DNA of 36,668 nt from NCBI GenBank assembly GCA_029240695.1, contig JARDZU010000003.1, forward strand, positions 1 to 36,668, read 5' to 3'. The position numbers were made by a program, and so were the translations under genes. The stretch comes from Acidimicrobiia bacterium. GTDB taxonomy: Bacteria > Actinomycetota > Acidimicrobiia > Spongiisociales > ZC4RG35. Shown in pieces: positions 4,073 through 20,360 of the stretch (position 1 is its first letter; each line of letters begins with the position of its first letter). Under the pieces are notes generated by a model, which ran no database searches, was not told where the DNA came from, and saw nothing but the letters and a program-made list of their open reading frames with translations.

Positions 4073-5503
4073 GTGGCCAAGGAGGTAGCCGTCCCCCTCA
4101 CCAAAGGCCCCCGCGAGGCGTGTGGGGTCTTCGCCGCCTACACACCCCGGCAACGGGTCTCCAGCCTGATCTACTTCGGCCTCTACGGGCTTCAGCATCG
4201 GGGCCAGGAGTCAGCCGGCATTGCGACATCGAACGGGGAGACAGTCACGGTGTTCAAGGACTTGGGCCTCGTGTCCCAGGTCTTCGACGAGCCCGCGCTC
4301 GCCGGTCTGGACGGTCACCTGGGCATCGGACACACCCGATACTCGACGACCGGCTCCAACAATTGGGCCAACGCCCAGCCAGCACATCGACAGGTCGGTG
4401 CCACGAGCATCGCCCTCGGGCACAACGGGAACCTGACCAACACCCCCCAGCTGGCTGAGCGCCTCGGAATTCGGGGGGCGACGACCGACTCGGACCTCAT
4501 GGCCGAAGGCATCGCCCGGGCCATCGACGACGAGCGCTCCGACCAGCGTGGCCTCGAGATGGCGGTGATGGAGGTGGCCCCTACATGGGAGGGCGCCTTC
4601 TCACTCGTGATCATGGATCAGGGCCACGTCATTGGGTTGCGGGACCCCAACGGGTTCCGCCCTCTCTGCCTCGGCTCATTGCCCGACGGCGGATGGGTTC
4701 TGTCCTCGGAGACTGCCGCCCTCGATCTGGTGGGCGCGAGATTCGTCCGCGAGATCGCGGCCGGGGAGATGGTGGTGATCGACGCAGTCGGGGTGCACAG
4801 CTTCTACCCGTTCTCGGCCACAGACCCGACACTCTGTCTCTTCGAGTTCGTCTACTTCGCCCGGCCCGACAGCCAGATGTACGGGCGCGGGATCCACGCG
4901 GCGAGACGGCAGATGGGCGAGACATTGGCCGCCGAGCACCCGGCCGACGCCGACGTGGTCGTCCCGGTACCCGAGTCAGGGCTACCCGCTGCTCAGGGAT
5001 TCGCCGCCGCCAGCGGTATCCCTTACTCCGACGGCCTGGTGAAGAACCGCTACATCGGTCGCACCTTCATCGAGCCCAGCCAGAGCCTGCGTGATCGAGG
5101 GATCAGGCTCAAGCTGAACCCGATACCGGACAACCTCAGGGATAAGCGGGTGGTCCTGGTCGACGACTCGATCGTGCGCGGCTCGACAACCCGGAAGCTG
5201 GTCCACATGGTGCGCGACGCCGGAGCCACCGAAGTCCATCTCCGCGTGTCTTCCCCTCCTTACCGCTGGCCATGTTTCTACGGCATGGACACATCGGACC
5301 GGAGCACCCTGATCGCGGCGTCCCTCGAGGTCGACGAGATCAGAGAGCACATCGGGGCCGACTCCCTCGGTTACTTGTCATTGCAGGGCCTGCTCGATGC
5401 GACCGGAGTCGCCGACGCCGGGTTCTGCACGGCTTGTCTCTCCGGCAACTATCCGACCGAGGTCCCGGAGGCAGCAGACAAGTTCCAGCTCGAGCGCTCC
5501 TAA
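4073..5503 (+). CDS. purF: Amidophosphoribosyltransferase
   Basis: REACGVFAAY N-terminal nucleophile Cys, YGLQHRGQESAGI, GHTRYSTTGS, PRPP loop RVVLVDDSIVRGST; GTG start. Confidence 0.97.
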   Translation: MAKEVAVPLTKGPREACGVFAAYTPRQRVSSLIYFGLYGLQHRGQESAGIATSNGETVTVFKDLGLVSQVFDEPALAGLDGHLGIGHTRYSTTGSNNWANAQPAHRQVGATSIALGHNGNLTNTPQLAERLGIRGATTDSDLMAEGIARAIDDERSDQRGLEMAVMEVAPTWEGAFSLVIMDQGHVIGLRDPNGFRPLCLGSLPDGGWVLSSETAALDLVGARFVREIAAGEMVVIDAVGVHSFYPFSATDPTLCLFEFVYFARPDSQMYGRGIHAARRQMGETLAAEHPADADVVVPVPESGLPAAQGFAAASGIPYSDGLVKNRYIGRTFIEPSQSLRDRGIRLKLNPIPDNLRDKRVVLVDDSIVRGSTTRKLVHMVRDAGATEVHLRVSSPPYRWPCFYGMDTSDRSTLIAASLEVDEIREHIGADSLGYLSLQGLLDATGVADAGFCTACLSGNYPTEVPEAADKFQLERS

Positions 5504-6478: not shown

Positions 6479-7269
6479 AATTCACCGGCGCCTCGGCGGT
6501 GGCACCCGCCGGACAGGGGATCTGGAAAGCAGACGTACAGCCGGACTGGGACATCTTCGGGATCGCGAACGGCGGCTATCTGATGGCCATCGCCGCTCGG
6601 GCGATGTCAGCCGCGGCTGGGGGCCGTCTTCCGGTGAGCGTCACCGCCCATTTCACGAGGCCGGTCGCGGCAGGCGCTGTCATGGTGACGGTGGACCCTG
6701 TGAAAGCGGGTCGCACTTTCTCCACCCTGCGGGCCACCTTGACCGCCGAATCCGATTCCATCTCGCTCCTGGGCAGTTTCGCCGAGCCACAATCCGGCGC
6801 CGTCGAGCCCCTCTATGCGGCAGCCGCTCCACCGGAGATGCCGCCACCAGAGGAGTGCATCCGCGCCGTTCCCTCGGTGGACGGGCCCCTTCCCCCACCG
6901 CTGATGGCCCAGTTCGAAGAGCGAATCCACCCCGAAGACGTCGGGCCGCTGCAAGGTGAGCCCAGCGGCACAGCCCAGATGCGAGGGTGGTTTCGACTCC
7001 ACGATGGTGAGCCGCTGGACGCCTTCACGCTGCTGCTCGCAGCCGACTCCTTCCCACCCGCGGTCTTCAACGCCGACCTTCCCCTCGCCTGGACCCCGAC
7101 CCTGGAGATGACCACCCAGATCCGCGGCGTACCCGTCCCGGGTTGGCTGAGGTGTCAGTTCTCGACGCGTTTCGTGACCGGCGGCCTGCTCGAGGAAGAC
7201 GGGGAGATATGGGACGAGGCCGGCCACCTCGTCGCCCTATCCCGTCAGTTAGCCCTCGTCCCCCGCTGA
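6475..7269 (+). CDS. Thioesterase (TesB/acyl-CoA thioesterase-like, hotdog fold)
   Basis: IFGIANGGYLMAIAARAMSAA...PVSVTAHFTRPVAAG...GRTFSTLRATL; starts with GTGA overlap with the purM stop. Confidence 0.75.
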   Translation: MKFTGASAVAPAGQGIWKADVQPDWDIFGIANGGYLMAIAARAMSAAAGGRLPVSVTAHFTRPVAAGAVMVTVDPVKAGRTFSTLRATLTAESDSISLLGSFAEPQSGAVEPLYAAAAPPEMPPPEECIRAVPSVDGPLPPPLMAQFEERIHPEDVGPLQGEPSGTAQMRGWFRLHDGEPLDAFTLLLAADSFPPAVFNADLPLAWTPTLEMTTQIRGVPVPGWLRCQFSTRFVTGGLLEEDGEIWDEAGHLVALSRQLALVPR

Positions 7270-8259
7270 GAAGGATTCGAGATCGAGGAGCAGCGCGGTC
7301 TTCCTCCTGTCATCGAGGAACGATGAGTTGATCGAGTTGCGGGCGATGACCGTGATCGTGGCATCGTCGAGGCCCAGATCATCCCGGACACCGCGGTAAT
7401 TGTCGCCGATATACCCACCGAAGTACGCAGGGTCGTCGGAGTTGACCGACACCACCAGCCCTGCCTCGATCATCGCGGGAAGCGGATGTCGTGCCAGATC
7501 CTCGACGACCTTCAGGGCCACGTTGGACAAAGGGCACACCGTGAGCGGAACCTTGTCGCGGCTCAGCCTCGCCACCAGCTCCGGGTCCTCGAGGCTGCGC
7601 ACACCGTGATCGATCCGCTCCGCTCCGAGGACGTCGAGGGCGGCTCGGACGTACTCTGGCGGGCCCTCCTCTCCGGCATGGGCGACGGAGCGAAGACCGA
7701 GCTGCCGGGCCCGGGCAAAGGCCCTCTCGAACAGGTGCGGAGGGCGACCGCGCTCCGACGAATCGATCCCGACCCCGATAACCCCGTCGAGGAACGGCTC
7801 GGCCTCCTCGATCGTGGAGACGGCCTCTTCCCCCGACAGATGACGGAGAAAGCACATGATCAGGTCTGCACTGATTCCCCGCCGTCTCCGGCCATCCGAG
7901 ATGGCATCCCGGAATCCCCTCATGAACACTTCGAAGCCGATGCCCCGCCCGGTATGGCTCTGGGGATCGAAGAAGATCTCGGCATGTCGCACCCCATCGT
8001 CGGCAGCCCGGTCGAGGTAGGCGGTCATGAGGTCGTAGAAATCATCCGGAGTGCGGAGGACCTCGCCACCCTGGTAGTAGATGTCGAGGAACGACTGGAG
8101 GTCGCTGAATCGGTAGGCGGCATGGACCTGGTCGATGTCCTCGAAAGGCAGCGACAGGCCGTTTCGGGTGGCGAGGCGAAACATCATGTCCGGCTCCAGC
8201 GTGCCCTCTATATGGACATGCAACTCCGCCTTGGGGAGACGGGTGATCAGATCGTCCAT
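7249..8259 (-). CDS. Adenosine/adenine deaminase family, adenine deaminase-type
   Basis: LPKAELHVHIEGTLEPDMMF, HAGEEGPPEYV, VNSDDPAYFGGYIGDNY; last motif resembles adenine deaminases more than adenosine deaminases. Confidence 0.85.
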   Translation of the reverse strand: MDDLITRLPKAELHVHIEGTLEPDMMFRLATRNGLSLPFEDIDQVHAAYRFSDLQSFLDIYYQGGEVLRTPDDFYDLMTAYLDRAADDGVRHAEIFFDPQSHTGRGIGFEVFMRGFRDAISDGRRRRGISADLIMCFLRHLSGEEAVSTIEEAEPFLDGVIGVGIDSSERGRPPHLFERAFARARQLGLRSVAHAGEEGPPEYVRAALDVLGAERIDHGVRSLEDPELVARLSRDKVPLTVCPLSNVALKVVEDLARHPLPAMIEAGLVVSVNSDDPAYFGGYIGDNYRGVRDDLGLDDATITVIARNSINSSFLDDRRKTALLLDLESFSAGDEG

Positions 8260-8269
8260 GTCCGAAATC

Positions 8270-10495
8270 TCATTCGAGAGCGATGTCCTGTGGGCGAATG
8301 GGCACCCGATTGAGCTCCTTCCCCGAGGCGGCTCGAATCGCAGCGGCGACCGCCGCCGTCGAGGAGATGGTCGGCGGCTCTCCCACGCCCTTCGCCCCGA
8401 AGGGGCCCCACGATCCCTCCCTTTCGATCAACAGGGCCTCGACGTCGGGTGCGTCCAGGATGGTGGGGAGCAGGTAGTCGGTGAATGTCGGATTGAGAAT
8501 GACACCATCCTTCATCACCAGCTCCTCCATCACGGCCAGACCCACCCCCTGGAGGATGCCGCCTTCGATCTGACCTCGCACCGACTGCGGGTTCAGGGCG
8601 AGACCAACGTCTTGCGCAGTGTCGACACGGACCACCTTGACCAGGCCCAGCTCGGTGTCGACGTCGACCACCGCCCGATGGCCGGCCACGGCGAAGTCGG
8701 CGTGTATCACGCCTTGACCGTTCTCGTCTGGGCCGGTCGTGGGCGGGTGCCGGAAGGTGACTGTCTCTTCCCAGTCTTCCTCAGCGAGGACCGACCAGGA
8801 GACCACTAGCTCATCGCCCTTCCAGACCCCGTCATCGTCGAGTTCCTCACCTTCGTGTCTGTCCAGGACCCTCTGCCGGAGCTTTACCGAGGCCTCGAGA
8901 GTGGCCCCACCGGAGAGCTGGGTCTGCCTAGAAGCCGAGGTGGAGCCGGCTGAGTCGATCTTCGATGTGTCCACGTGGTTCACGTCGACGCGGGAGATCC
9001 CCAGCGCGCTGCGGACTATCTGAGCCAGGACGGTGACCAGGCCCTGCCCGACTTCTATCGCGGCGGTTTCGACGACCGCACCATCAGGAGTAAGGCGAAC
9101 CCTTGCCTGGGCGTAGTCATCGGATCCCTCGGAGAAGCCGAGGTTCTTGAGACCGAGGGCATATCCCACCCCTCTCCGAACGTGATGTGGCTCGGTGGTG
9201 AGACCCGAGCCTCCGGGAAGCTCGCTGTGATGCGCCATCGTTGCCGGTTCCGGAAGAGGCATTGCCTGCAGACTCCGTATCACCTCGATCGTGGGAAGCG
9301 GGGTCTCGATCACCTGCCCGGTGGTCGGCATCGGGTCGCCGGTGCCGAGAGCATTCAGCTCGCGCAGATCGAGCGGGTCCATTTCGAGGGCCGCGGCGAG
9401 CCGGTCCATTTGTGCTTCGTAGGCAAAGCAGACCTGTACCGCTCCAAATCCCCTCATCGCCCCACAAGGCGGGTTGTTGGTGCGGGCTCCCACCCCGTCG
9501 ACTGCGACCGAGTCGCTCCGATATGGCCCGACTGCGAAATAGCACGCGTTGGCCAGAACGGCGGATGTTGTCGAGGCGTAGGCCCCACCATCGATCATCA
9601 CCCGCGCTTCGACGCGGACTAGACGTCCGTCCTCATCGGACTCGTGGCGGTAGCGGAGCCACGCCGGATGGCGGTGGACATGCCCGGTGAACGACTCCGA
9701 GCGGTGATAGACCATCTTGACCGGCCGCCCGGTGTGGAGGGCCAGCATGCAGAGATGGATGTGCAGGTTGACGTCTTCTCTGGCCCCGAAGGCGCCACCG
9801 ATCCCCGTCGGGTGGGCTCGCACCTGATCCGGTCGGAGACCGAGGCTGGCCACCACTTGCTCTTGATCGACGTGCACGTATTGGCTCGTCGCGTATAGAT
9901 CGACACCACCCTGGCCGTCCGGGATGGCGAGACCGGCCTCGGTCCCCAGCGGCGCCTGATCCTGCATCCCGACCTCGTACTCACCTTCGACCACGACGGA
10001 CCCGTGCAAGCCCTGGTCTCCGCGACGGATGCTCAGCCGGCGAAACACCTCGTCACGGTCGTCGGCCTCTTCGGGGTCGGTCCGCGCGTCGAGCTCTTCG
10101 TAGCGAACCTCGACCGCAGCCGCCGCCCTCCTGGCGGTGTCGTCGTCCTCGGCGGCTACCACTGCCACCGGCTCTCCCCAGAACTTGACCTCGTCGCCGG
10201 CCAGAACCGGCTGGTCGGCGTGCTCCAATCCAAACGTAGCCCTCCCCGGGACATCGGCTGCCGTGAGACACGCGTGCACACCGCCGATTGCCAGCGCCGG
10301 GCCCAGGTCGATCGAGACGACGCGTGCCCGGGCGTGGGGGCTACGGACCGTGGCCGCCCAGAGCATCCCCTCGGCTCTCAAGTCCTGGGCGTATTCGAAC
10401 TCGCCACGGAGCTTGGGCACGCCATCGGGACGGAGCGGGGAATCCCGGATCACACCACGCGGCACTCCGACGCGGCGTCCCGTCCTAGTGCTCAT
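8270..10495 (-). CDS. pucD: Xanthine dehydrogenase, molybdopterin-binding subunit (PucD/XdhA-type)
   Basis: DSPLRPDGVPKLRGEFEYAQD, GGAFGAREDVNLHIH, AMRGFGAVQVCFAYE, IEVGQGL, GAKGVGEPP. Start taken as 10495 (MSTRTGRR), overlapping the Fe-S gene by ~11 bp. Confidence 0.9.
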   Translation of the reverse strand: MSTRTGRRVGVPRGVIRDSPLRPDGVPKLRGEFEYAQDLRAEGMLWAATVRSPHARARVVSIDLGPALAIGGVHACLTAADVPGRATFGLEHADQPVLAGDEVKFWGEPVAVVAAEDDDTARRAAAAVEVRYEELDARTDPEEADDRDEVFRRLSIRRGDQGLHGSVVVEGEYEVGMQDQAPLGTEAGLAIPDGQGGVDLYATSQYVHVDQEQVVASLGLRPDQVRAHPTGIGGAFGAREDVNLHIHLCMLALHTGRPVKMVYHRSESFTGHVHRHPAWLRYRHESDEDGRLVRVEARVMIDGGAYASTTSAVLANACYFAVGPYRSDSVAVDGVGARTNNPPCGAMRGFGAVQVCFAYEAQMDRLAAALEMDPLDLRELNALGTGDPMPTTGQVIETPLPTIEVIRSLQAMPLPEPATMAHHSELPGGSGLTTEPHHVRRGVGYALGLKNLGFSEGSDDYAQARVRLTPDGAVVETAAIEVGQGLVTVLAQIVRSALGISRVDVNHVDTSKIDSAGSTSASRQTQLSGGATLEASVKLRQRVLDRHEGEELDDDGVWKGDELVVSWSVLAEEDWEETVTFRHPPTTGPDENGQGVIHADFAVAGHRAVVDVDTELGLVKVVRVDTAQDVGLALNPQSVRGQIEGGILQGVGLAVMEELVMKDGVILNPTFTDYLLPTILDAPDVEALLIEREGSWGPFGAKGVGEPPTISSTAAVAAAIRAASGKELNRVPIRPQDIALE

Positions 10496-10958
10496 CAGTC
10501 GCCCCCACTCCCTCCAGGGCGCGGATGATGGCGCCGTACCCGGTGCACCGGCAGATGTTCCCGGCCAGGGCGTCTTTGATCTCGTTACTGCTCGGATGAG
10601 CGTTCCGGGCAAACAGGTCGACCGCGGCCACGACGATGCCCGGTGTGCAGAAGCCACATTGGACGGCTCCAGCGTGGTGCATCGCCTCCTGGACAGGGTG
10701 CAGGCCGTCGTCGGGGCTGACCCCTTCGACCGTGGTCACCGACGAACCGGCGGCATCCGCCGCCATCACCAGGCAGGAGCAGACCAGCTCTCCGTCGAGG
10801 ATGACGCTGCACGATCCACATTCTCCCTGCTCACAGGCATTCTTTGAGCCGGGCAGGCCGAGCTCGTCCCGCAGGAGATCGAGGAGGCTGCCGGGGTTGG
10901 TGACCCGGGCCGTGACCGGTACTCCGTTTACCGTCAGCTCGACGATCACGAGAGACAC
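10485..10958 (-). CDS. pucE: Xanthine dehydrogenase 2Fe-2S subunit
   Basis: CEQGECGSCSVILDG...CSCL...CGFCTPG...CRCTGYG. Confidence 0.93.
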   Translation of the reverse strand: MSLVIVELTVNGVPVTARVTNPGSLLDLLRDELGLPGSKNACEQGECGSCSVILDGELVCSCLVMAADAAGSSVTTVEGVSPDDGLHPVQEAMHHAGAVQCGFCTPGIVVAAVDLFARNAHPSSNEIKDALAGNICRCTGYGAIIRALEGVGATDEH

Positions 10959-11740
10959 CTCTCCAGGAGACGTCTGGCCAGGACGCCTGCCCCGTGACGC
11001 CGGTACTCCTCAGTCGACCGGTGATCGGTTATCGGCCGCACTTCTTCGCTGACGAGCCGCTGGAACTCGACCAGATCACCCGCGCTCGGATGGCCGATCG
11101 ACGAGATCATGTTCTCGGCTCCGGTAGCCCTGATGGGGGTGGGGGCCACTGACCCGAGGGCTACCGTGGTCTTGCCGTCGTCGGCCCGGGTGACCACAGC
11201 GCACACAGTGGCTATGACCATGGCGTTTCGGATCCCGATCTTGCCGAAGCATTGCCGCTCGGGCAGGCCGGCGGGCAGGTGGACCGCCATGATCAACTCG
11301 TCTGGCCGTCGGGCCGTCTCCTTGACACCGGTGAAGAACTCCTGCCAGGTCAGCGTTCGCTGTGACGCTGTCGAAGCGAGCTCGATGGAGGCGCCGACCG
11401 CGGCCAGGAACGGATGCCCGTCGCCGGCAGGGCTCGCAGTCCCCAGATTCCCGCCGATCGTCCCGGCATTCCGGATCTGTGGTGAGCCCACGGTGCGCGC
11501 CGCTTCGGCCAAGGCCTTGGGGCCATGGGTCTCGATCCGGCGCCATGTGACGCCTGCCCCGATCCGTTGGCCGTCCCACTCCTTCAGCTCGGCGAGCCGG
11601 CGCAGCCCGATGACACGCTCGGGGCGGATGTGGCCGAAGTTGACCTCGACCATGAGATCGGTTCCCCCGGCCAGTGGGATCGCTCCGTCGCCCAGTCCGG
11701 CGAGGGCCTCATCGATCGAGTTCGGGTGCACGATCTCCAC
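10946..11740 (-). CDS. pucC: Xanthine dehydrogenase FAD-binding subunit
   Basis: AIPLAGGTDLMVEVN, RNAGTIGGNLGTASPAGDGHPFLAAVGA (FAD/CO-DH flavoprotein family). Confidence 0.92.
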   Translation of the reverse strand: MEIVHPNSIDEALAGLGDGAIPLAGGTDLMVEVNFGHIRPERVIGLRRLAELKEWDGQRIGAGVTWRRIETHGPKALAEAARTVGSPQIRNAGTIGGNLGTASPAGDGHPFLAAVGASIELASTASQRTLTWQEFFTGVKETARRPDELIMAVHLPAGLPERQCFGKIGIRNAMVIATVCAVVTRADDGKTTVALGSVAPTPIRATGAENMISSIGHPSAGDLVEFQRLVSEEVRPITDHRSTEEYRRHGAGVLARRLLERCLS

Positions 11741-11768
11741 TGGCGGGCAAAGCTAGTGCCGGTTTCCG

Positions 11769-13124
11769 TTACACAAGTGTCGCGGCAAGCCGGTTGTGCT
11801 CTCTGACCAGAGACGCGGTGTCGACGCCGATCAATTGGCCGCTCTCGATGACCTTCCTTCCGCCGACCCAGGAGTGATCGACCGTCACCGGGGCGCACAT
11901 CACCACCGCCGCCACCGGATCGTGGAGCGCGCCGGCAAAGTCGACCCGGTTCAGGTCATAGGCAATGAAGTCGGCGCACATCCCGGGGGCAAGTCTCCCG
12001 ATGTCGTCACGGCCGAGCACCCCCGCCCCACCTACGGTGGCCAGACCGAGCGCCTGCCGCGCCGTCATCTGCGGCCCCTCGCCGATGCCCGGCGAGACAC
12101 CGAGACGATTGAGCAGGAGCGCCTGTCGGACCTCCCCCATCATGTGCGAGGCGTCGTTCGAAGCCGAGCCGTCGACACCGAGACCCACCCCGACACCCGC
12201 CTCCAGATACCGCGAGACCGGGGCCAGCCCGGAGGCGAGACGCATGTTCGAGGTCGGGCAATGGGCGACACCTGTCCCGGAATGACCCATCCGTCTCACT
12301 TCGTCCTCGGCCACGTGCACGGCATGGGCGTACCAGACATCCGGACCGGCCCAGCCAAGGTCCTCCATGTACTCCACCGGACGACGACCGAACCGGCCAA
12401 GGCAGAATTCCTCCTCATCGGCCGTCTCGGCGAGATGGGTGTGCATGGCGACTTCCAGATCGCGTGCCAATTCGGCGGTCTCTTCCATCAGATCGGTGGT
12501 CACGCTGAACGGGGAGCATGGGGCGAGGACGACCTGCGTCATCGACCCGGGGGACGGGTCGTGGAAGAGGTCGACCACCCGCCGGGAGTCTTCGAGGATC
12601 ACATCATTGGTCTCGACGACAGAATCCGGCGGCAGCCCGCCCTCCGACCGGCCGAGGCTCATCGACCCGCGCGAGACATGAAATCGAACTCCTACCGGGG
12701 CGGCGCCTTCGATTTGATCGTCGACCCGCGAGCCGTTCGGCCACAGATAGTGATGGTCGAAGGCGGTGGTGCAGCCGCTCAACGCGAGCTCGGCGAGACC
12801 AAGACGGGTGGAGACCCGCACATGATCCGGCGTCATCCCCGCCCAGATCGGATAAAGCGTGAGAAGCCAATCGAACAAACCCGCATCCTGGGCACCCGGC
12901 ACTACCCGTGTGAGCGTCTGATAGAGGTGATGATGGGTGTTGACCAATCCGGGGAGGACGACATGGCCGCTGAGGTCGACCATCTCGTCGGCCTCTTCGG
13001 GCAGCTCGGCCGTACGGGCAACCTGCTCGATCCAACCGTCGCGTGCGAACAGACCCCCGTCCTCGATCTCCTCGCCGCCCATGGTGACCAGCACTTCGGC
13101 ATGACGGACGAGCAGGGTTCCCAT
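11769..13124 (-). CDS. Amidohydrolase, 8-oxoguanine deaminase-like
   Basis: VLPGLVNTHHHLYQTLTR, GCTTAFDHHYLWP, HTHLAET, AHAVHV, AHCPTSNMRLASG, GLGVDGSASND; context with xdh and uricase genes. Confidence 0.8.
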   Translation of the reverse strand: MGTLLVRHAEVLVTMGGEEIEDGGLFARDGWIEQVARTAELPEEADEMVDLSGHVVLPGLVNTHHHLYQTLTRVVPGAQDAGLFDWLLTLYPIWAGMTPDHVRVSTRLGLAELALSGCTTAFDHHYLWPNGSRVDDQIEGAAPVGVRFHVSRGSMSLGRSEGGLPPDSVVETNDVILEDSRRVVDLFHDPSPGSMTQVVLAPCSPFSVTTDLMEETAELARDLEVAMHTHLAETADEEEFCLGRFGRRPVEYMEDLGWAGPDVWYAHAVHVAEDEVRRMGHSGTGVAHCPTSNMRLASGLAPVSRYLEAGVGVGLGVDGSASNDASHMMGEVRQALLLNRLGVSPGIGEGPQMTARQALGLATVGGAGVLGRDDIGRLAPGMCADFIAYDLNRVDFAGALHDPVAAVVMCAPVTVDHSWVGGRKVIESGQLIGVDTASLVREHNRLAATLV

Positions 13125-13162
13125 CGGCACCAAAGCTAACTGCTGTCTTAGAGTCGCCCGCC

Positions 13163-14488
13163 ATGACTCTGCGCGATGACTCGATGACTCGCTGGGGTGA
13201 ACGTCTCGGGGCGGTGGCGACCCGTCTCGGCACCGACTTCCCGGGCGAAAGCCCCGAACGCCAGCCGGTGCACACCGTGTATGGCGGCGCCCATCTCTTC
13301 TCGGCCAACACAGCGGAACGCTTGGGCGAGTTGTCCCTGGCCGCCCTCGATCGTTGGGCTCCCGCCCCCGAGGACCTGGCTTCCATTCTCGGCCTCCCCG
13401 AATCGCAGGCCGGGCCAGTTCACGATCTCGTGGCCGAGAAATTGAGAAGGGAGCCGGTGGAGGACTTCCGCATCGATTTCGAGGATGGCTACGGGCATCG
13501 GCCCGATGACGAGGAGGACGGGCACGCCCGATCGGCTGCCACCGAGCTAGCCGGTGGCATGACGGCCGGGACGCTCCCTCCCTTCACCGGGATCCGGGTC
13601 AAGTCGCTCTCCGGTGAGCTGCACCGGCGCGCCTTGCGCACCCTCGATCTGTTCGTCACCACAGTCGTGGAGAAGGGGGGGCATCTCCCACCCGGCTTCA
13701 CCGTGACCCTCCCCAAGATCCAGGATGTCGAGCAGGTCCTAGTGCTCGGCGAGGCCCTCGCCGAGCTGGAGCAAGATCTGGGCATCGACCCCATCCCGGT
13801 GGAGCTCATGGTCGAGACTCCGCAGACAGTCATCGACCGGGACGGGACCTCAGGGGTTCGCAAATTCGTCGACGCCGGGCAGGGCCGCGTGCGTGGCGCC
13901 CATTTCGGGACCTACGACTACACGGCATCGCTCACCATCACTGCTGCCTATCAGACGATGACGCATCCGGCCTGTGATTTCGCCCGACACGCATTGCAGG
14001 TGAGCCTGGCTGGGACCGGGGTCTGGATCTCCGACGGGGCGACCAACGTGATGCCGGTGGCACCGCATCGTGGCGAGGAGTTGACCTCGAGCCAGGAAGA
14101 GGAGAACCGCAAGACCGTCCACGATGCGATGCGGCTCCACTACGAGCACATCAGAAATTCGCTGATCCACGCCTATTACCAGGGGTGGGACCTCCATCCT
14201 GCCCAGTTCCCGACTCGCTATGCCGCCGTCTACGCCTTCTTTCTCGAGGGTCTGGACCAGGCCGGCGAGCGGCTCTCCAACTTCGTCGAATCGGCGGCCA
14301 AGGCCACCCTCGTCGGTGAGGTGTTCGACGACGCTGCGACCGGCCAGGGTCTCCTCAACTTCTTCCTACGAGCTATCAACTGCGGTGCGATCGACGAGAG
14401 GGAGGCCACCACACGCAGCGGCCTCACGCTCGATGAGATCCAGACCCGCTCCTTCCTCGCCATCCTGGAGAGCCGGACCGCTGGATAG
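13163..14488 (+). CDS. HpcH/HpaI (CitE-like) aldolase family protein (DUF6986-like), possible C-C lyase/synthase
   Basis: DFRIDFEDGYGHRPDDEED, GIRVKSLSGE, VTLPKIQDVEQV, PVELMVETPQTVID, GAHFGTYDYTASL; inserted between the two minus-strand purine operons. Confidence 0.75.
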   Translation: MTLRDDSMTRWGERLGAVATRLGTDFPGESPERQPVHTVYGGAHLFSANTAERLGELSLAALDRWAPAPEDLASILGLPESQAGPVHDLVAEKLRREPVEDFRIDFEDGYGHRPDDEEDGHARSAATELAGGMTAGTLPPFTGIRVKSLSGELHRRALRTLDLFVTTVVEKGGHLPPGFTVTLPKIQDVEQVLVLGEALAELEQDLGIDPIPVELMVETPQTVIDRDGTSGVRKFVDAGQGRVRGAHFGTYDYTASLTITAAYQTMTHPACDFARHALQVSLAGTGVWISDGATNVMPVAPHRGEELTSSQEEENRKTVHDAMRLHYEHIRNSLIHAYYQGWDLHPAQFPTRYAAVYAFFLEGLDQAGERLSNFVESAAKATLVGEVFDDAATGQGLLNFFLRAINCGAIDEREATTRSGLTLDEIQTRSFLAILESRTAG

Positions 14489-14491
14489 ATC

Positions 14492-15307
14492 TCAGCGCGA
14501 GACGATGAAACCGATATCGCCGTAGGGCTGGCTGACCGGCTGGAAGACCGTGTGCTCGTCCTCGATCCCGAATCTGGACAGGTCGTAGCTCAGGTGATGC
14601 TGATTGGGGAGTCGAAAGTCGACCTCCTCGATCTCTGGAATCGCTCCCAGCAAGGCCTCTGCCATCATCCATCCCTGGTGTTGTACGGACTCCGAGTGTT
14701 CGCCCATGAAACTCTCGATCATGGCTTCACGCGCCGTCTCCCAGGTGGCCGTGGTGTCGGCCGGGGTGGCTGAATATCGCCACACCGCCTTCACAGACGT
14801 GGCCAGGATCCGCTCGTCGGTCTCGGGAAGCAAGGTGAACTCGTCCCGGGGGAAACCGGCGAAGGCCGAACCCGTGGTCTTGAGGACCACCAATCCGTCC
14901 ACTCCGGCCCACACCCCAGCATTGGTCCCGGCGACCACCCGGCCCAACCGTCGCTCTGAGCCTCCACCGACGAAGCCCGACGGGCCCCTCCGGTTCCAGA
15001 TGAGCTGGGATACAGAGACGTCCGCTGCGCTGATGCCTTCACGCTCCAGGAAGCGGTCACAGAGGACAGCAGCGAACGCCTCCAGGTCTCGATTGAGATG
15101 CTCCTGAGCCAGGCCGTAGACGGTGTTCTTCATGGTGTCGGTAGGCAGAACGCCCCTGTTGTCACCTCGGACATGGGCCGCCTCGACGTCACCCTGGAGC
15201 AGCACCTGGACCGTCAAGTCCAGAAAATCGTCACCCGACTCGGTGCGGAGGATCTTCGACACCCGAACATCGGACTTGCCCCATCGGTTCTCGCCGAGCC
15301 GAGCCAT
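14492..15307 (-). CDS. Urate oxidase (uricase)
   Basis: NRWGKSDVRVSKI, DNRGVLPTDTMKNTVYGLA, PNQHHLSYDLS, uricase C-terminus PYGDIGFIVSR. Confidence 0.95.
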   Translation of the reverse strand: MARLGENRWGKSDVRVSKILRTESGDDFLDLTVQVLLQGDVEAAHVRGDNRGVLPTDTMKNTVYGLAQEHLNRDLEAFAAVLCDRFLEREGISAADVSVSQLIWNRRGPSGFVGGGSERRLGRVVAGTNAGVWAGVDGLVVLKTTGSAFAGFPRDEFTLLPETDERILATSVKAVWRYSATPADTTATWETAREAMIESFMGEHSESVQHQGWMMAEALLGAIPEIEEVDFRLPNQHHLSYDLSRFGIEDEHTVFQPVSQPYGDIGFIVSR

Positions 15308-15624
15308 CAGCTACCCCGGTAGGTCGTGTACCCGTAGCTGCTGAGCAAAAGCGGGACGTGATAGTGGTCCGGGGCATCGTCGAGGTCGACGATGACGTGC
15401 ACCTCGGGGAAGAAAGGATTGCCGGCATCACCCGTGGCAAAAACGAGACGGTAGATGCCGGCGCCCAAGGCGACGCCGAGTGCGGCGACGCGCCCATCGT
15501 CATCTGTCGTTCCTTCGCTGACGTGCTGCCAGCCAGCGTCCGATGAACGCTCCAGCGTCACCTTCACCCCGGACGCGGGCTGACCGGACTCTGTGTCGAG
15601 AACGTGTGTGCTGAGGCCGGTCAT
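15307..15624 (-). CDS. hiuH: 5-hydroxyisourate hydrolase (transthyretin-like)
   Basis: LSTHVLDTESGQPASGVKV, YHVPLLLSSYGYTTYRGS C-terminal tetrapeptide YRGS. Confidence 0.96.
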   Translation of the reverse strand: MTGLSTHVLDTESGQPASGVKVTLERSSDAGWQHVSEGTTDDDGRVAALGVALGAGIYRLVFATGDAGNPFFPEVHVIVDLDDAPDHYHVPLLLSSYGYTTYRGS

Positions 15625-17054
15625 CGGGCGTCTCCAAGGCAGAGCATGCGACGCAGTCTGGTCTCCGTGATCGCCCGTTGCTCCGCGGCTGCGTTGGCCA
15701 TCTCTTCGTCTCGCGTGTTGCCGAGTCGGCTGCGGGCGATGTCGAGCATCTCCTGAGCGGTCTTCCCGGAGGCATAGATGATGTAGGTGAAACCGTGGGT
15801 GGATTCGTACTCCTTGTTCGCCTCAGCCAACGCGGTCAGCAACGACCCTTCTGCATCGGCGGTGCCACTCTGCTCGCGATCCGCCTCGTGGTCTCCCCTC
15901 TCGCCGATTCGGGGGTGACCGGCGAAGGCCTCGAGCCAGTCGCTCTCATCCAGCGCATCGAAGGCGACGCCCGCTGCGGCCAGCACGGCATCGCCGTCAG
16001 CGAATGGCCGGTTCGCGATCATCCGGTCCACCCAGTTCGTGGAAGCGCAGGCGGTCTGGAAGAAGCGCCGCCCTTCCTCGTCGAACAGTGCGTTCAGGTA
16101 TGTGAGCCGAAGCTTCTCGGCTCCATCAGGGTCGGGCCGGCCCCTGACACGGAGACGTGCCACCCCGCCGTCGGGATGGATGTCTAGACGGACGAAGCGG
16201 GCTCGAGCAGGGCGATCGAGTATCAAGAGATTGACTGCGTCCGGCTTCGCCTCGGCCCGGTCGACCACCACCTCCCAGGTCTGGCCGTCATTCGAGACCT
16301 GGACCGAGACCCAGCCAGGTGCGTTTCCCTTGAAATGCCGGGTGTCGACCTCGAGGGAGTCGACTGCTCCGGGCAATCCGAGGCGGAAGACGGCCCAGTC
16401 GTTGCCCGGCCCGCGTCGACGCTTGGTCTCCCAGCCGTCCCACATCCCAGCCGGCTCGGTGGGCCGGAGGAGATTGGAGGGTGGTGAGTAGTGGACATCG
16501 GAGGCATCGAGGGCCTCGCCACCGACAACGGACGAAGCCAGGTCGATACCCCCGTCGTCGAGGCACACCTCATGTCGGGCAGGTATCGGGTCGCCGTCGA
16601 GGCGCAGGCGCGCCACCCCTCCGTCGGGGAAGATGTTGAGACGAATATGGGTGACCCGATGCGGGTCGTCGACCTCGAAGCTCGAGGTGGTGTCACCGGA
16701 GAGGGAGGTACGGGGGATGATCTGGACCCAGTCGGCCGCCTCGATTCGCTCGTCCCCACCCACGCCGCAGGCCTCCAACGAGAAGGATTCGGGGTAATTG
16801 CCGGTGAAATAGGAGGTGTCGACCGTCACCGAACGGACTCGCCCCGCCACTCCGAGGGCGAGAACACACCAGTCGTGGCCCGGCTCGCGACGTCTCCGGG
16901 TCTCCCAACCGTCCATCCATTTCCCCCGTTCGGTGTAGAGGTCCTCCTTCCACACCGGATTTGCCGTTTGCAGGAGATTGCGCGCTTCGGCGAAGAACTC
17001 GTCGTTGCAGGCAACCACCCGCCCGCCAACTGCCTCAGATATCAGATCGGTCAT
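15621..17054 (-). CDS. alc-uraD: Bifunctional fusion: allantoicase (N-terminal, two repeats) + OHCU decarboxylase (UraD, C-terminal)
   Basis: Two DGWET(R/K)RRR.PG.DW...F.GN repeats and (L/I)(N/H)..PDGGVARLR (allantoicase), then LTYLNALFDEEGRRFF..CAS..WVDRM..RPF...AGHPRIGE...EYESTHGFTYIIYASGKTAQEML (OHCU decarboxylase) in one uninterrupted ORF. Confidence 0.92.
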   Translation of the reverse strand: MTDLISEAVGGRVVACNDEFFAEARNLLQTANPVWKEDLYTERGKWMDGWETRRRREPGHDWCVLALGVAGRVRSVTVDTSYFTGNYPESFSLEACGVGGDERIEAADWVQIIPRTSLSGDTTSSFEVDDPHRVTHIRLNIFPDGGVARLRLDGDPIPARHEVCLDDGGIDLASSVVGGEALDASDVHYSPPSNLLRPTEPAGMWDGWETKRRRGPGNDWAVFRLGLPGAVDSLEVDTRHFKGNAPGWVSVQVSNDGQTWEVVVDRAEAKPDAVNLLILDRPARARFVRLDIHPDGGVARLRVRGRPDPDGAEKLRLTYLNALFDEEGRRFFQTACASTNWVDRMIANRPFADGDAVLAAAGVAFDALDESDWLEAFAGHPRIGERGDHEADREQSGTADAEGSLLTALAEANKEYESTHGFTYIIYASGKTAQEMLDIARSRLGNTRDEEMANAAAEQRAITETRLRRMLCLGDAR

Positions 17055-18360
17055 TGCGCCTCAACATCCTGCCAGCAATGGGGCCGACGCTCGTCCCGTC
17101 GAAGACAGTGACACCTGCGAGGATGGTCGTCACGACCGAACCACGAAGTGACATCCCCTCGTAAGGAGTCATGGGGTGACGATGTTCGAGGTCGCCCCCC
17201 CGGACGCGGGTGACGCCGTCAGGATCCCAGACAACGAAGTCGGCATCCATCCCGACCTCGATCGAGCCCTTGCGATCGTCGAGCCCGGCTAGGCGCGCCG
17301 GCTCGAGGGCCAACCATCGAGTCAGCTGCGGCAGCTCGATCTCACGCTCCACCGCCCCAGTCCACGTTGCGGGCAAGCGCAGCTGTAGTGAGCCGATACC
17401 TCCCCAGGCCTCACCGAAGTCCCCATCGTCGAGACGCTTGACCTCGGCCGGGGCCGGAGAGTGATCGGAGACGATCATGTCCAGGCTCCCATCCATCAGA
17501 CCATCCCACAGGGCGTCGCGGTGCTCGGCGGCCCGAATCGGTGGGGCGCATTTGAACGAGGTGGCGCCGGCGCCGATTTCTTCGGCGCAAAACGTCAGAT
17601 AGTGGGGGCATGTCTCCCCAGTGAGCGAACCGGGCCCATCGGCCACCGCTCTCATCGCCTCGGCCGACGACACGTGAAGCACGTGAACCCTGGCCCCGGT
17701 GGCCCGGGCCAGATCTGCGACCGTGGTGACCGCGGCGGCCTCGCCGTCGGCTGGACGGGTCTCCAGATACGACTGGTAGTCGGTCGGATCGCCCGATAGT
17801 CGGAGGATCCGGGTCGGGTCCTCGGCGTGCACGAGTGAGGGAACCTCGAGCTCCCGCATGAGGGGGAGGGCAGAGGCGAGCTCAGAGGGGCTCACCAGCG
17901 GGAACTCCTCGACTCCCGAGTCGACCAGGAACGACTTGAAGCCACAGACGCCCTCGGCCACGAGAGGGCCGATCTGATCTTCGGATCCCGGGATGAGGCC
18001 TCCCCAGAAGGCCACGTCGGCACTCAGCTTCCCCTCGGCCGCGGCTCGCTTCTTCGACAAGGCGCGGACGTTGACTGTCGGTGGAATCGAATTTAGAGGC
18101 ATGTCGACGATCGTCGTCGTCCCCCCGGCGACTGCGGCTCGTGTCGCCGTCTTGAACCCCTCCCATTCGGACCTACCCGGCTCGTTGACATGGACGTGAG
18201 AATCGACCAGTCCGGGCATCACGACCAGGTCGCCGAAGTCGACCTCGGCCCGGCCCTCACCGATATCGACGATCACGCCCTGGTCGATCCGTATCGATGC
18301 CGGGCGCACCTCCTCGCCCAACACCACCCGGTTGCTGCCGATTATCGACATCGGTGGCAA
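17035..18360 (-). CDS. allB: Allantoinase (cyclic amidohydrolase)
   Basis: MPGLVDSHVHVNEPGRSEWEGF, GGTTTIVDMPLNSIPPT, GFKSFLVDSGVEEFP, SDHSPAP; likely start ATG at 18351. Confidence 0.93.
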   Translation of the reverse strand: MPPMSIIGSNRVVLGEEVRPASIRIDQGVIVDIGEGRAEVDFGDLVVMPGLVDSHVHVNEPGRSEWEGFKTATRAAVAGGTTTIVDMPLNSIPPTVNVRALSKKRAAAEGKLSADVAFWGGLIPGSEDQIGPLVAEGVCGFKSFLVDSGVEEFPLVSPSELASALPLMRELEVPSLVHAEDPTRILRLSGDPTDYQSYLETRPADGEAAAVTTVADLARATGARVHVLHVSSAEAMRAVADGPGSLTGETCPHYLTFCAEEIGAGATSFKCAPPIRAAEHRDALWDGLMDGSLDMIVSDHSPAPAEVKRLDDGDFGEAWGGIGSLQLRLPATWTGAVEREIELPQLTRWLALEPARLAGLDDRKGSIEVGMDADFVVWDPDGVTRVRGGDLEHRHPMTPYEGMSLRGSVVTTILAGVTVFDGTSVGPIAGRMLRRNDRSDI

Positions 18361-18450
18361 AAGTTACCGGTGCAGCCTTCCTTTCTTGCCGTCCCGACGA
18401 ACGAGGTGGTAAGTAGCGTGATCGCCGTCGCCCAGCCCAAAGGAGTCGCC

Positions 18451-18978
18451 ATGGAGTCGGTGAGTAGCAGCCCGCCGGATCGGACCATCAACTACGCCTT
18501 CATTCTCGGCGGTGTCACCGCCCTGATCTTCGGGATCATCCTCCTCGTCCGCCAGGAAGAGGCATTGGCCCTGCTTATGGTGGTCCTGGGATTGTGGTGG
18601 CTCATACAGGGCGCCTTCATGATCTTCGCAGTCTTTGTCGACCGCACCGACATGTGGTGGAAGCTGATAATCGGCGTCTTGGGCGTCGTGGCCGGCTTCC
18701 TCGTCCTGACCAACCCCGGCGAGGCCGCCGATGTGTTCCAAGGGGTCATTGGCGTCATTCTCGGCATTATCGGAATCGCGGTGGGAGTGACCGCCCTCAT
18801 CGGCTCCTTCCGAGGCGGTGGCGTCGGTGCCTTCGTGTTCGGGGCCGTCAGTGTCCTTATCGGCCTCCTCATCCTGTTCAACGCCCAGTTCTCCACAGAG
18901 CTCCTGATAACCCTGTTCGCCGTCCTCCTTCTCATCGACGGTGTGGCCGGTATCTATCTGGGCATCAAGAACCGGTAG
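18451..18978 (+). CDS. HdeD/DUF308-family multi-pass membrane protein
   Basis: Repeated glycine-rich TM segments (LLMVVLGLWWLIQGAFMI...); SD AAAGGAG ahead of ATG 18451. Confidence 0.75.
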   Translation: MESVSSSPPDRTINYAFILGGVTALIFGIILLVRQEEALALLMVVLGLWWLIQGAFMIFAVFVDRTDMWWKLIIGVLGVVAGFLVLTNPGEAADVFQGVIGVILGIIGIAVGVTALIGSFRGGGVGAFVFGAVSVLIGLLILFNAQFSTELLITLFAVLLLIDGVAGIYLGIKNR

Positions 18979-18996
18979 CGACGACCGCATTCCGTT

Positions 18997-19026
18997 GCAG
19001 GGCGTCACTGATAGATGACGCCCTGC
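18997..19026. terminator. Hairpin GCAGGGCGTCA-CTGATAGA-TGACGCCCTGC
   Basis: Perfect 11-bp stem just after the DUF308 stop. Confidence 0.75.
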
Positions 19027-19076
19027 ATTCGGTTTGGCCACTTCTACCGGCGCCAACGAGCCGGTAGCATCCTCCG

Positions 19077-20360
19077 ATGTCCGATTTCCTGAGCAGACAC
19101 AACGACGTTCTCGCCCCCGTGCTCGCCTTCGACACGGATATCCACGCCGCCAAGGCCGAGGGGATCTGGATCACCGACGTCGACGGGAAACGCTGGGCGG
19201 ACTTCGCCTGCGGAACCGCAGTGACCAACCTGGGCCACAATCACCCGGCAGTGCTCGAGGCGGCACATCGTCAGCTGGGCTCCCTGGTGCACTCGGGCTG
19301 CATCGTCCGCTATGACTCGATCGTCGAGGCCGCCGAGCGTCTGCGGGCAATCACGCCACCCGGAATCGAGAAGTTCAGCTTCGCCAACTCCGGCGCCGAG
19401 GCGGTCGAAGCGGCGGTGAAACTGGCCAAGCACACCACGGGCAGACAGGGCGTCATCGCATTCCGGGGTGCGTTCCACGGCCGCACCATGGGGTCGGTCA
19501 CCTACACGACCTCGAATGCGAAATACCGGGATGGATATCACCCGGTGCTCGGCTCGGTGTTCGTGACCCCCTATCCCCACCCTTACCGATGGGGCATGAC
19601 CGAGGACGAGGCCACCGATCTCTCCCTCAACGAGTTGCGGATGATGTTCAAGCACGTGGTGACACCGAAGAACATCGCCTGCATTCTCATCGAGCCGGTC
19701 CAGGGCGAGGGTGGCTATTACCCGGCGCCGGCTCGCTTCCTCGATGCTCTGCGTGAGATGGCGGACGAGCACGGGATCAAGCTGCTCTACGACGAGGTGC
19801 AGTCCGGTTTCGGGCGGACGGCCGAGTGGTTCGCCTTAGATCACTACGACGCCAAGCCGGACATCATGGCCATGGGCAAGGGAATCGCCAACGGTCTCCC
19901 CCTCTCGGCTTACGGCTCCTCGCGGGAGACGATCGATGCCTGGCCCAGGGGCGCGCACGGCACTACATACGGCGGCAACCCGGTCTCGACCGCGGCCTCT
20001 GTGGCGGTGATCGATACGATGGAGGGCCTCCTCCCCCACGCGCGTGAGCTGTCGAAGCGCGCCTTCGAGCGATTCAGCGAGATGGCGGACAGTCATCCCA
20101 CGATCGGAGACGTCCGCGGCCTCGGCCTCATGATCGGCGTTGAGCTGGTGACCGATCGGGAGAGCCGCACCCCGGACGCCAAAGCCTTCAGCCACGTCGA
20201 GAAACACGCCTTCGATCGTGAGCTGATCATCATCAACTGTGGCCCGGATGCAAACGTCATTCGCTTCATCCCTCCGTTGATCACGACCCGGGAGGAGCTG
20301 GACTGGTCCCTCGATCTGGTCGACGAGGGTCTCACCAGCTGGGAAAGCCAGGACCGCTGA
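19077..20360 (+). CDS. Class III PLP aminotransferase (4-aminobutyrate aminotransferase-like)
   Basis: DFACGTAVTNLGHNHP, FANSGAEAVEAAVKLAK, FRGAFHGRTMGSVT, IIEPVQGEGGYYP-like, YDEVQSGFGRT, MGKGIANGLPLSA. Confidence 0.9.
   Translation: MSDFLSRHNDVLAPVLAFDTDIHAAKAEGIWITDVDGKRWADFACGTAVTNLGHNHPAVLEAAHRQLGSLVHSGCIVRYDSIVEAAERLRAITPPGIEKFSFANSGAEAVEAAVKLAKHTTGRQGVIAFRGAFHGRTMGSVTYTTSNAKYRDGYHPVLGSVFVTPYPHPYRWGMTEDEATDLSLNELRMMFKHVVTPKNIACILIEPVQGEGGYYPAPARFLDALREMADEHGIKLLYDEVQSGFGRTAEWFALDHYDAKPDIMAMGKGIANGLPLSAYGSSRETIDAWPRGAHGTTYGGNPVSTAASVAVIDTMEGLLPHARELSKRAFERFSEMADSHPTIGDVRGLGLMIGVELVTDRESRTPDAKAFSHVEKHAFDRELIIINCGPDANVIRFIPPLITTREELDWSLDLVDEGLTSWESQDR

Follow-up and report, generated by a model that had tools for sequence, protein, structure and literature searches.

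The window (the whole 36,668-nucleotide stretch of Acidimicrobiia DNA analysed here) carries on its minus strand a run of four overlapping genes: allantoinase, an allantoicase-UraD fusion, 5-hydroxyisourate (HIU) hydrolase and uricase. The fusion gene (15621-17054) starts with ATG and runs as a single frame of 477 amino acids. The upstream gene (17035-18360, minus strand) had been read from the letters as an overlapping allantoinase and this assignment holds, as its product exceeds the cut-off of TIGR03178 (481 bits against 357.85) and its stop at 17035 produces a 20-nt overlap with the start of the fusion. Downstream, the HIU hydrolase gene (15307-15624; TIGR02962, 114.8 bits, cut-off 87.45) overlaps the stop of the fusion through an ATGA (15621-15624), and the run closes with uricase (urate oxidase; 14492-15307; TIGR03383, 253.5 bits, cut-off 168.4). 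A scan of 14300-19200 returned no sigma-70-like promoter site. Genes for an adenosine deaminase family protein, the Mo- and FAD-subunits of xanthine dehydrogenase and an 8-oxoguanine deaminase lie at 7249-13133 on the minus strand and, taken together with the urate operon, give the window the greater part of a purine breakdown pathway. Between the two xanthine dehydrogenase subunits, a 157-aa frame (10485-10958) is a candidate Fe-S subunit by its size.

Allantoicase converts allantoate into ureidoglycolate and urea, and UraD, the OHCU decarboxylase, converts OHCU into (S)-allantoin; HIU hydrolysis is the step between uricase and UraD. Domain searches bear out the description of the 477-aa frame as an allantoicase with two repeats and, behind it, a complete UraD. 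The allantoicase half (16132-17054, residues 1 to about 307) contains two copies of the Pfam repeat PF03561 (298.7 bits, E 9.7e-90, the better one at residues 10-155), scores 369.1 bits against the allantoicase model TIGR02961 (cut-off 277.9), matches yeast allantoicase (1sg3/1o59) and aligns with 1sg3 over residues 2-305 (E 8e-58). The UraD half (15639-16112, residues about 315-472) matches PF09349 at residues 321-468 over the entire profile (1-155 of 155; 121.6 bits, cut-off 24, E 5.6e-35), passes the UraD model NF010372 (157 against 124) and falls slightly short of TIGR03180 (134 against 139.4). OHCU decarboxylases of known structure align with residues 316-468, the aligned structures being 3o7h, 5uou and 2q37, and the motifs GHPRIGE and STHGFTYIIYASG are both present. 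The boundary between the domains falls around residues 306-316, at window positions of about 16108-16137, in agreement with the junction proposed earlier near 16090-16120.

An AlphaFold2 model of the fusion, computed with 30 fused homologues as input, reached a mean pLDDT of 92.3 and a pTM of 0.86. In a Foldseek search, its UraD half resembled 2q37 (target TM 0.91) and 3o7h (0.82), while its allantoicase half resembled 1o59/1sg3 (target TM 0.76). In the model, helix 309-322 starts two residues past the last allantoicase strand, so the two halves are predicted to be joined with almost no linker.

The fused frame is real, as confirmed by comparison with relatives. Two genomes of the same genus as the window (L119 and L121) give a gap-free codon alignment through the junction, with dN of about 0.18-0.23 and dS of about 0.93-0.97 over codons 296-345, and dN is also lower than dS in each half of the fusion in this same-genus comparison. 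A survey of the order covered 138 genomes, where 17 from the window's family and 11 from the sister family f2 match the fusion model. In the window's family, 15 of the 17 hold both domains in one match free of internal stops, the remaining two being a fragment at the edge of a contig and a match to allantoicase alone. Accordingly, the frameshift or sequencing error that had been named as a danger at the junction is not there. In the sister family, none of the 11 matching genomes carries the fusion, alc and uraD being separate genes; at locus L020, the uraD ATG sits about 19 nt inside alc in a different frame.

The architecture had been taken for an unusual one, a view that does not survive the wider survey: the fusion is common in several bacterial phyla and has already been modelled. 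The NCBIfam model NF010371 (PRK13797.1, 521 positions, named 'allantoicase') spans it, with residues 2-471 of the query corresponding to model positions 16-518. Because genes for allantoicase alone match positions of about 8-350 and genes for UraD alone positions of about 345-518, the model itself describes a two-enzyme architecture, in the same allantoicase-UraD order as the window protein and under a name that leaves out UraD. The window fusion scores 467 bits against it, below the cut-off of 814, and thus does not formally belong to this equivalog; no fused genome in the phylum and order samples passes that cut-off (best 607.6). Fused proteins are either called 'allantoicase' by the model or score below its cut-off, and for this reason UraD may be recorded as missing where it is fused. 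In a phylum sample of 398 genomes, allantoicase is matched in 37, of which 17 carry the full fusion. Among the best 80 loci of a scan of GTDB species, which were sorted by their open frames and do not represent frequencies, the fusion also occurs in Deltaproteobacteria/Myxococcota MAGs, Frankia, Euzebyaceae and one Acidobacteria MAG, and separate adjacent genes occur in Acidobacteria, Gemmatimonadota, Elusimicrobia, Hahella, Colwellia, Endozoicomonas, Saprospiraceae and others. In the plasmid collection, no record reached 80% coverage of the fusion, and the best matches were to allantoicase. Our search of the open-access literature found no paper with a biochemical characterisation or measured activity of an allantoicase-UraD fusion; a search on PuuE and UraD likewise yielded nothing about it, and the single hit dealing with the pathway, PMC4562309, makes no mention of allantoicase.

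The gene order around the pair is largely the same whether or not the two genes are fused. Of the 35 fused loci, 31 have allB no more than 300 nt upstream and 33 have hiuH no more than 300 nt downstream; for the 31 loci with separate but adjacent genes, the counts are 26 and 29. These similar counts indicate that the order allB-alc-uraD-hiuH is independent of fusion. Moreover, allB adjoins alc in 29 of the 44 loci whose uraD is neither fused to alc nor next to it.

Phylogenetically, the distribution calls for several changes between the fused and unfused states: six on the tree of the allantoicase part, seven on that of the UraD part and five on the combined tree. Forcing all fusions into a single clade lowers the log-likelihood by 104 units, and the AU test on the concatenated allantoicase and UraD parts rejects one ancient origin of all fusions (p-AU 6e-5). 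The window's lineage groups with the unfused f2 genes in all three trees (SH-aLRT 82-90), a group that also takes in two Myxococcota fusions in the UraD tree. Deep branches are weak in many places, and the strongly supported ones force only two to three changes, leaving the number and direction of the events (fusion or fission) uncertain. Merging of overlapping neighbour genes is the simplest account, and some lineages may have undergone fission instead. That the same two genes fused more than once could also reflect selection for physical association. Recurrent gain or loss, together with the separate overlapping genes of the sister family, provides a comparison set for the function of the fusion.

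We regard the window protein, with considerable confidence, as an ordinary bifunctional protein of purine catabolism that arose from merged neighbouring operon genes, each domain acting at its own step and its own site. Mechanistically, allantoate would be split into ureidoglycolate and urea by the N-terminal half, and OHCU turned into (S)-allantoin by the C-terminal half, each at a separate site; allantoin released by UraD would be opened by the separate allantoinase, and the allantoate would then come back to the allantoicase half. The fusion itself would have arisen because alc and uraD, neighbouring and often overlapping in a conserved allB-alc-uraD-hiuH operon, lost their boundary. The benefit would probably be equal dosage, simpler expression or simpler assembly, and not direct transfer between the fused domains.

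A more elaborate reading, the allantoinase-centred complex suggested from the sequence alone, which we consider unlikely, places AllB between the UraD and allantoicase domains, with the intermediates from OHCU to ureidoglycolate passed within one assembly. The position of allB directly upstream of the pair in most loci would suit such a complex, as would the several switches between the fused and separate states, the predicted lack of a floppy linker (helix 309-322 lying close behind an allantoicase strand) and an amphibian allantoinase-allantoicase complex cited in PMC3646786. However, allB adjoins alc even where uraD is elsewhere, the same operon order occurs without fusion, and a UraD fusion that skips a step has a precedent in PucL (PMC8305020). 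Since the adjacency of allB and alc and the operon order both hold without fusion, gene order alone explains the data, and we doubt that one assembly of UraD, AllB and allantoicase drove repeated fusion, or that the fusion marks a bacterial urate-to-ureidoglycolate complex.

It is considerably less likely still that one half has no catalytic role and was kept after fusion as a scaffold or regulatory domain. In the UraD half, H380 (the His of GHPxIG), E394 and Q395 (the Glu-Gln pair) and R466 (the C-terminal Arg), which we take to be active-site residues, show no variation in 45 of 45 aligned fused homologues, and the allantoicase motifs DGWE (48-51) and PDGG (143-146) are kept across 30 fusions. 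The window's genome has no UraD match beyond the fused one and dN stays below dS in both halves, further arguing against a domain released from catalysis. Finally, that sequencing or assembly joined two genes artificially, as a fragmented assembly of 282 contigs might suggest, is ruled out for practical purposes by the uninterrupted frame in the two same-genus genomes and most gene-bearing family members and by purifying selection across the gap-free junction.

Beside the urate operon, on the plus strand, lies a gene for a DUF6986 protein (PF22484, 13163-14488). In the 398-genome phylum sample, full-length DUF6986 is found in 32 of 37 allantoicase-positive vs 3 of 361 other genomes, a co-occurrence with a Fisher p of 1.7e-38 that takes species as independent and is therefore overstated by shared ancestry. 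Its AlphaFold2 model has a CitE-like lyase fold, with malate synthases resembled more weakly in Foldseek, and ureidoglycolate lyase PF04115 is matched in none of the 37 allantoicase-positive genomes of that sample. From its co-occurrence and predicted fold, DUF6986 could supply the missing enzyme that acts on ureidoglycolate or glyoxylate; the window's genome also contains a match to canonical malate synthase. Although the pathway releases urea, genome G000 has no match to the urease alpha subunit PF00449, nor to PF04115; as the assembly is 93% complete, this does not prove that the genes are absent.

Known fusions of pathway enzymes place the window protein in context. The sequence-only reading had stated that described UraD fusions link consecutive steps, which is wrong for uricase: Bacillus subtilis PucL is a bifunctional protein with UraD at the N-terminus and urate oxidase at the C-terminus, and the HIU hydrolase PucM is encoded apart from it, by the locus numbered directly after pucL (PMC8305020). 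Like the window fusion, PucL joins UraD to a non-adjacent enzyme with the gene for the intervening enzyme next door; unlike it, the partner is urate oxidase and UraD is N-terminal. Since PucL also skips a step, with pucM separately encoded, a skipped step does not in itself point to a complex. The apparent anomaly is thereby removed, as a step-skipping UraD fusion is neither unique nor rare and follows from operon gene order. In Marinagarivorans, a MAG locus (L073) has one open frame (4149-5018, plus strand) with UraD and HIU hydrolase matches, a bacterial fusion that adjoins a separate allantoicase. Arabidopsis TTL, a UraD-HIU hydrolase with both activities measured (PMC2834698), is like the window protein a bifunctional UraD fusion by architecture, the activities of the latter being those we infer for its domains; it differs in joining consecutive steps and in having UraD N-terminal. 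In Cryptococcus, DAL2,3,3 is an allantoicase-ureidoglycolate hydrolase whose deletion impairs growth in the way expected (PMC3646786), and it resembles the window fusion in joining allantoicase to another pathway enzyme, but its partner catalyses the next step.
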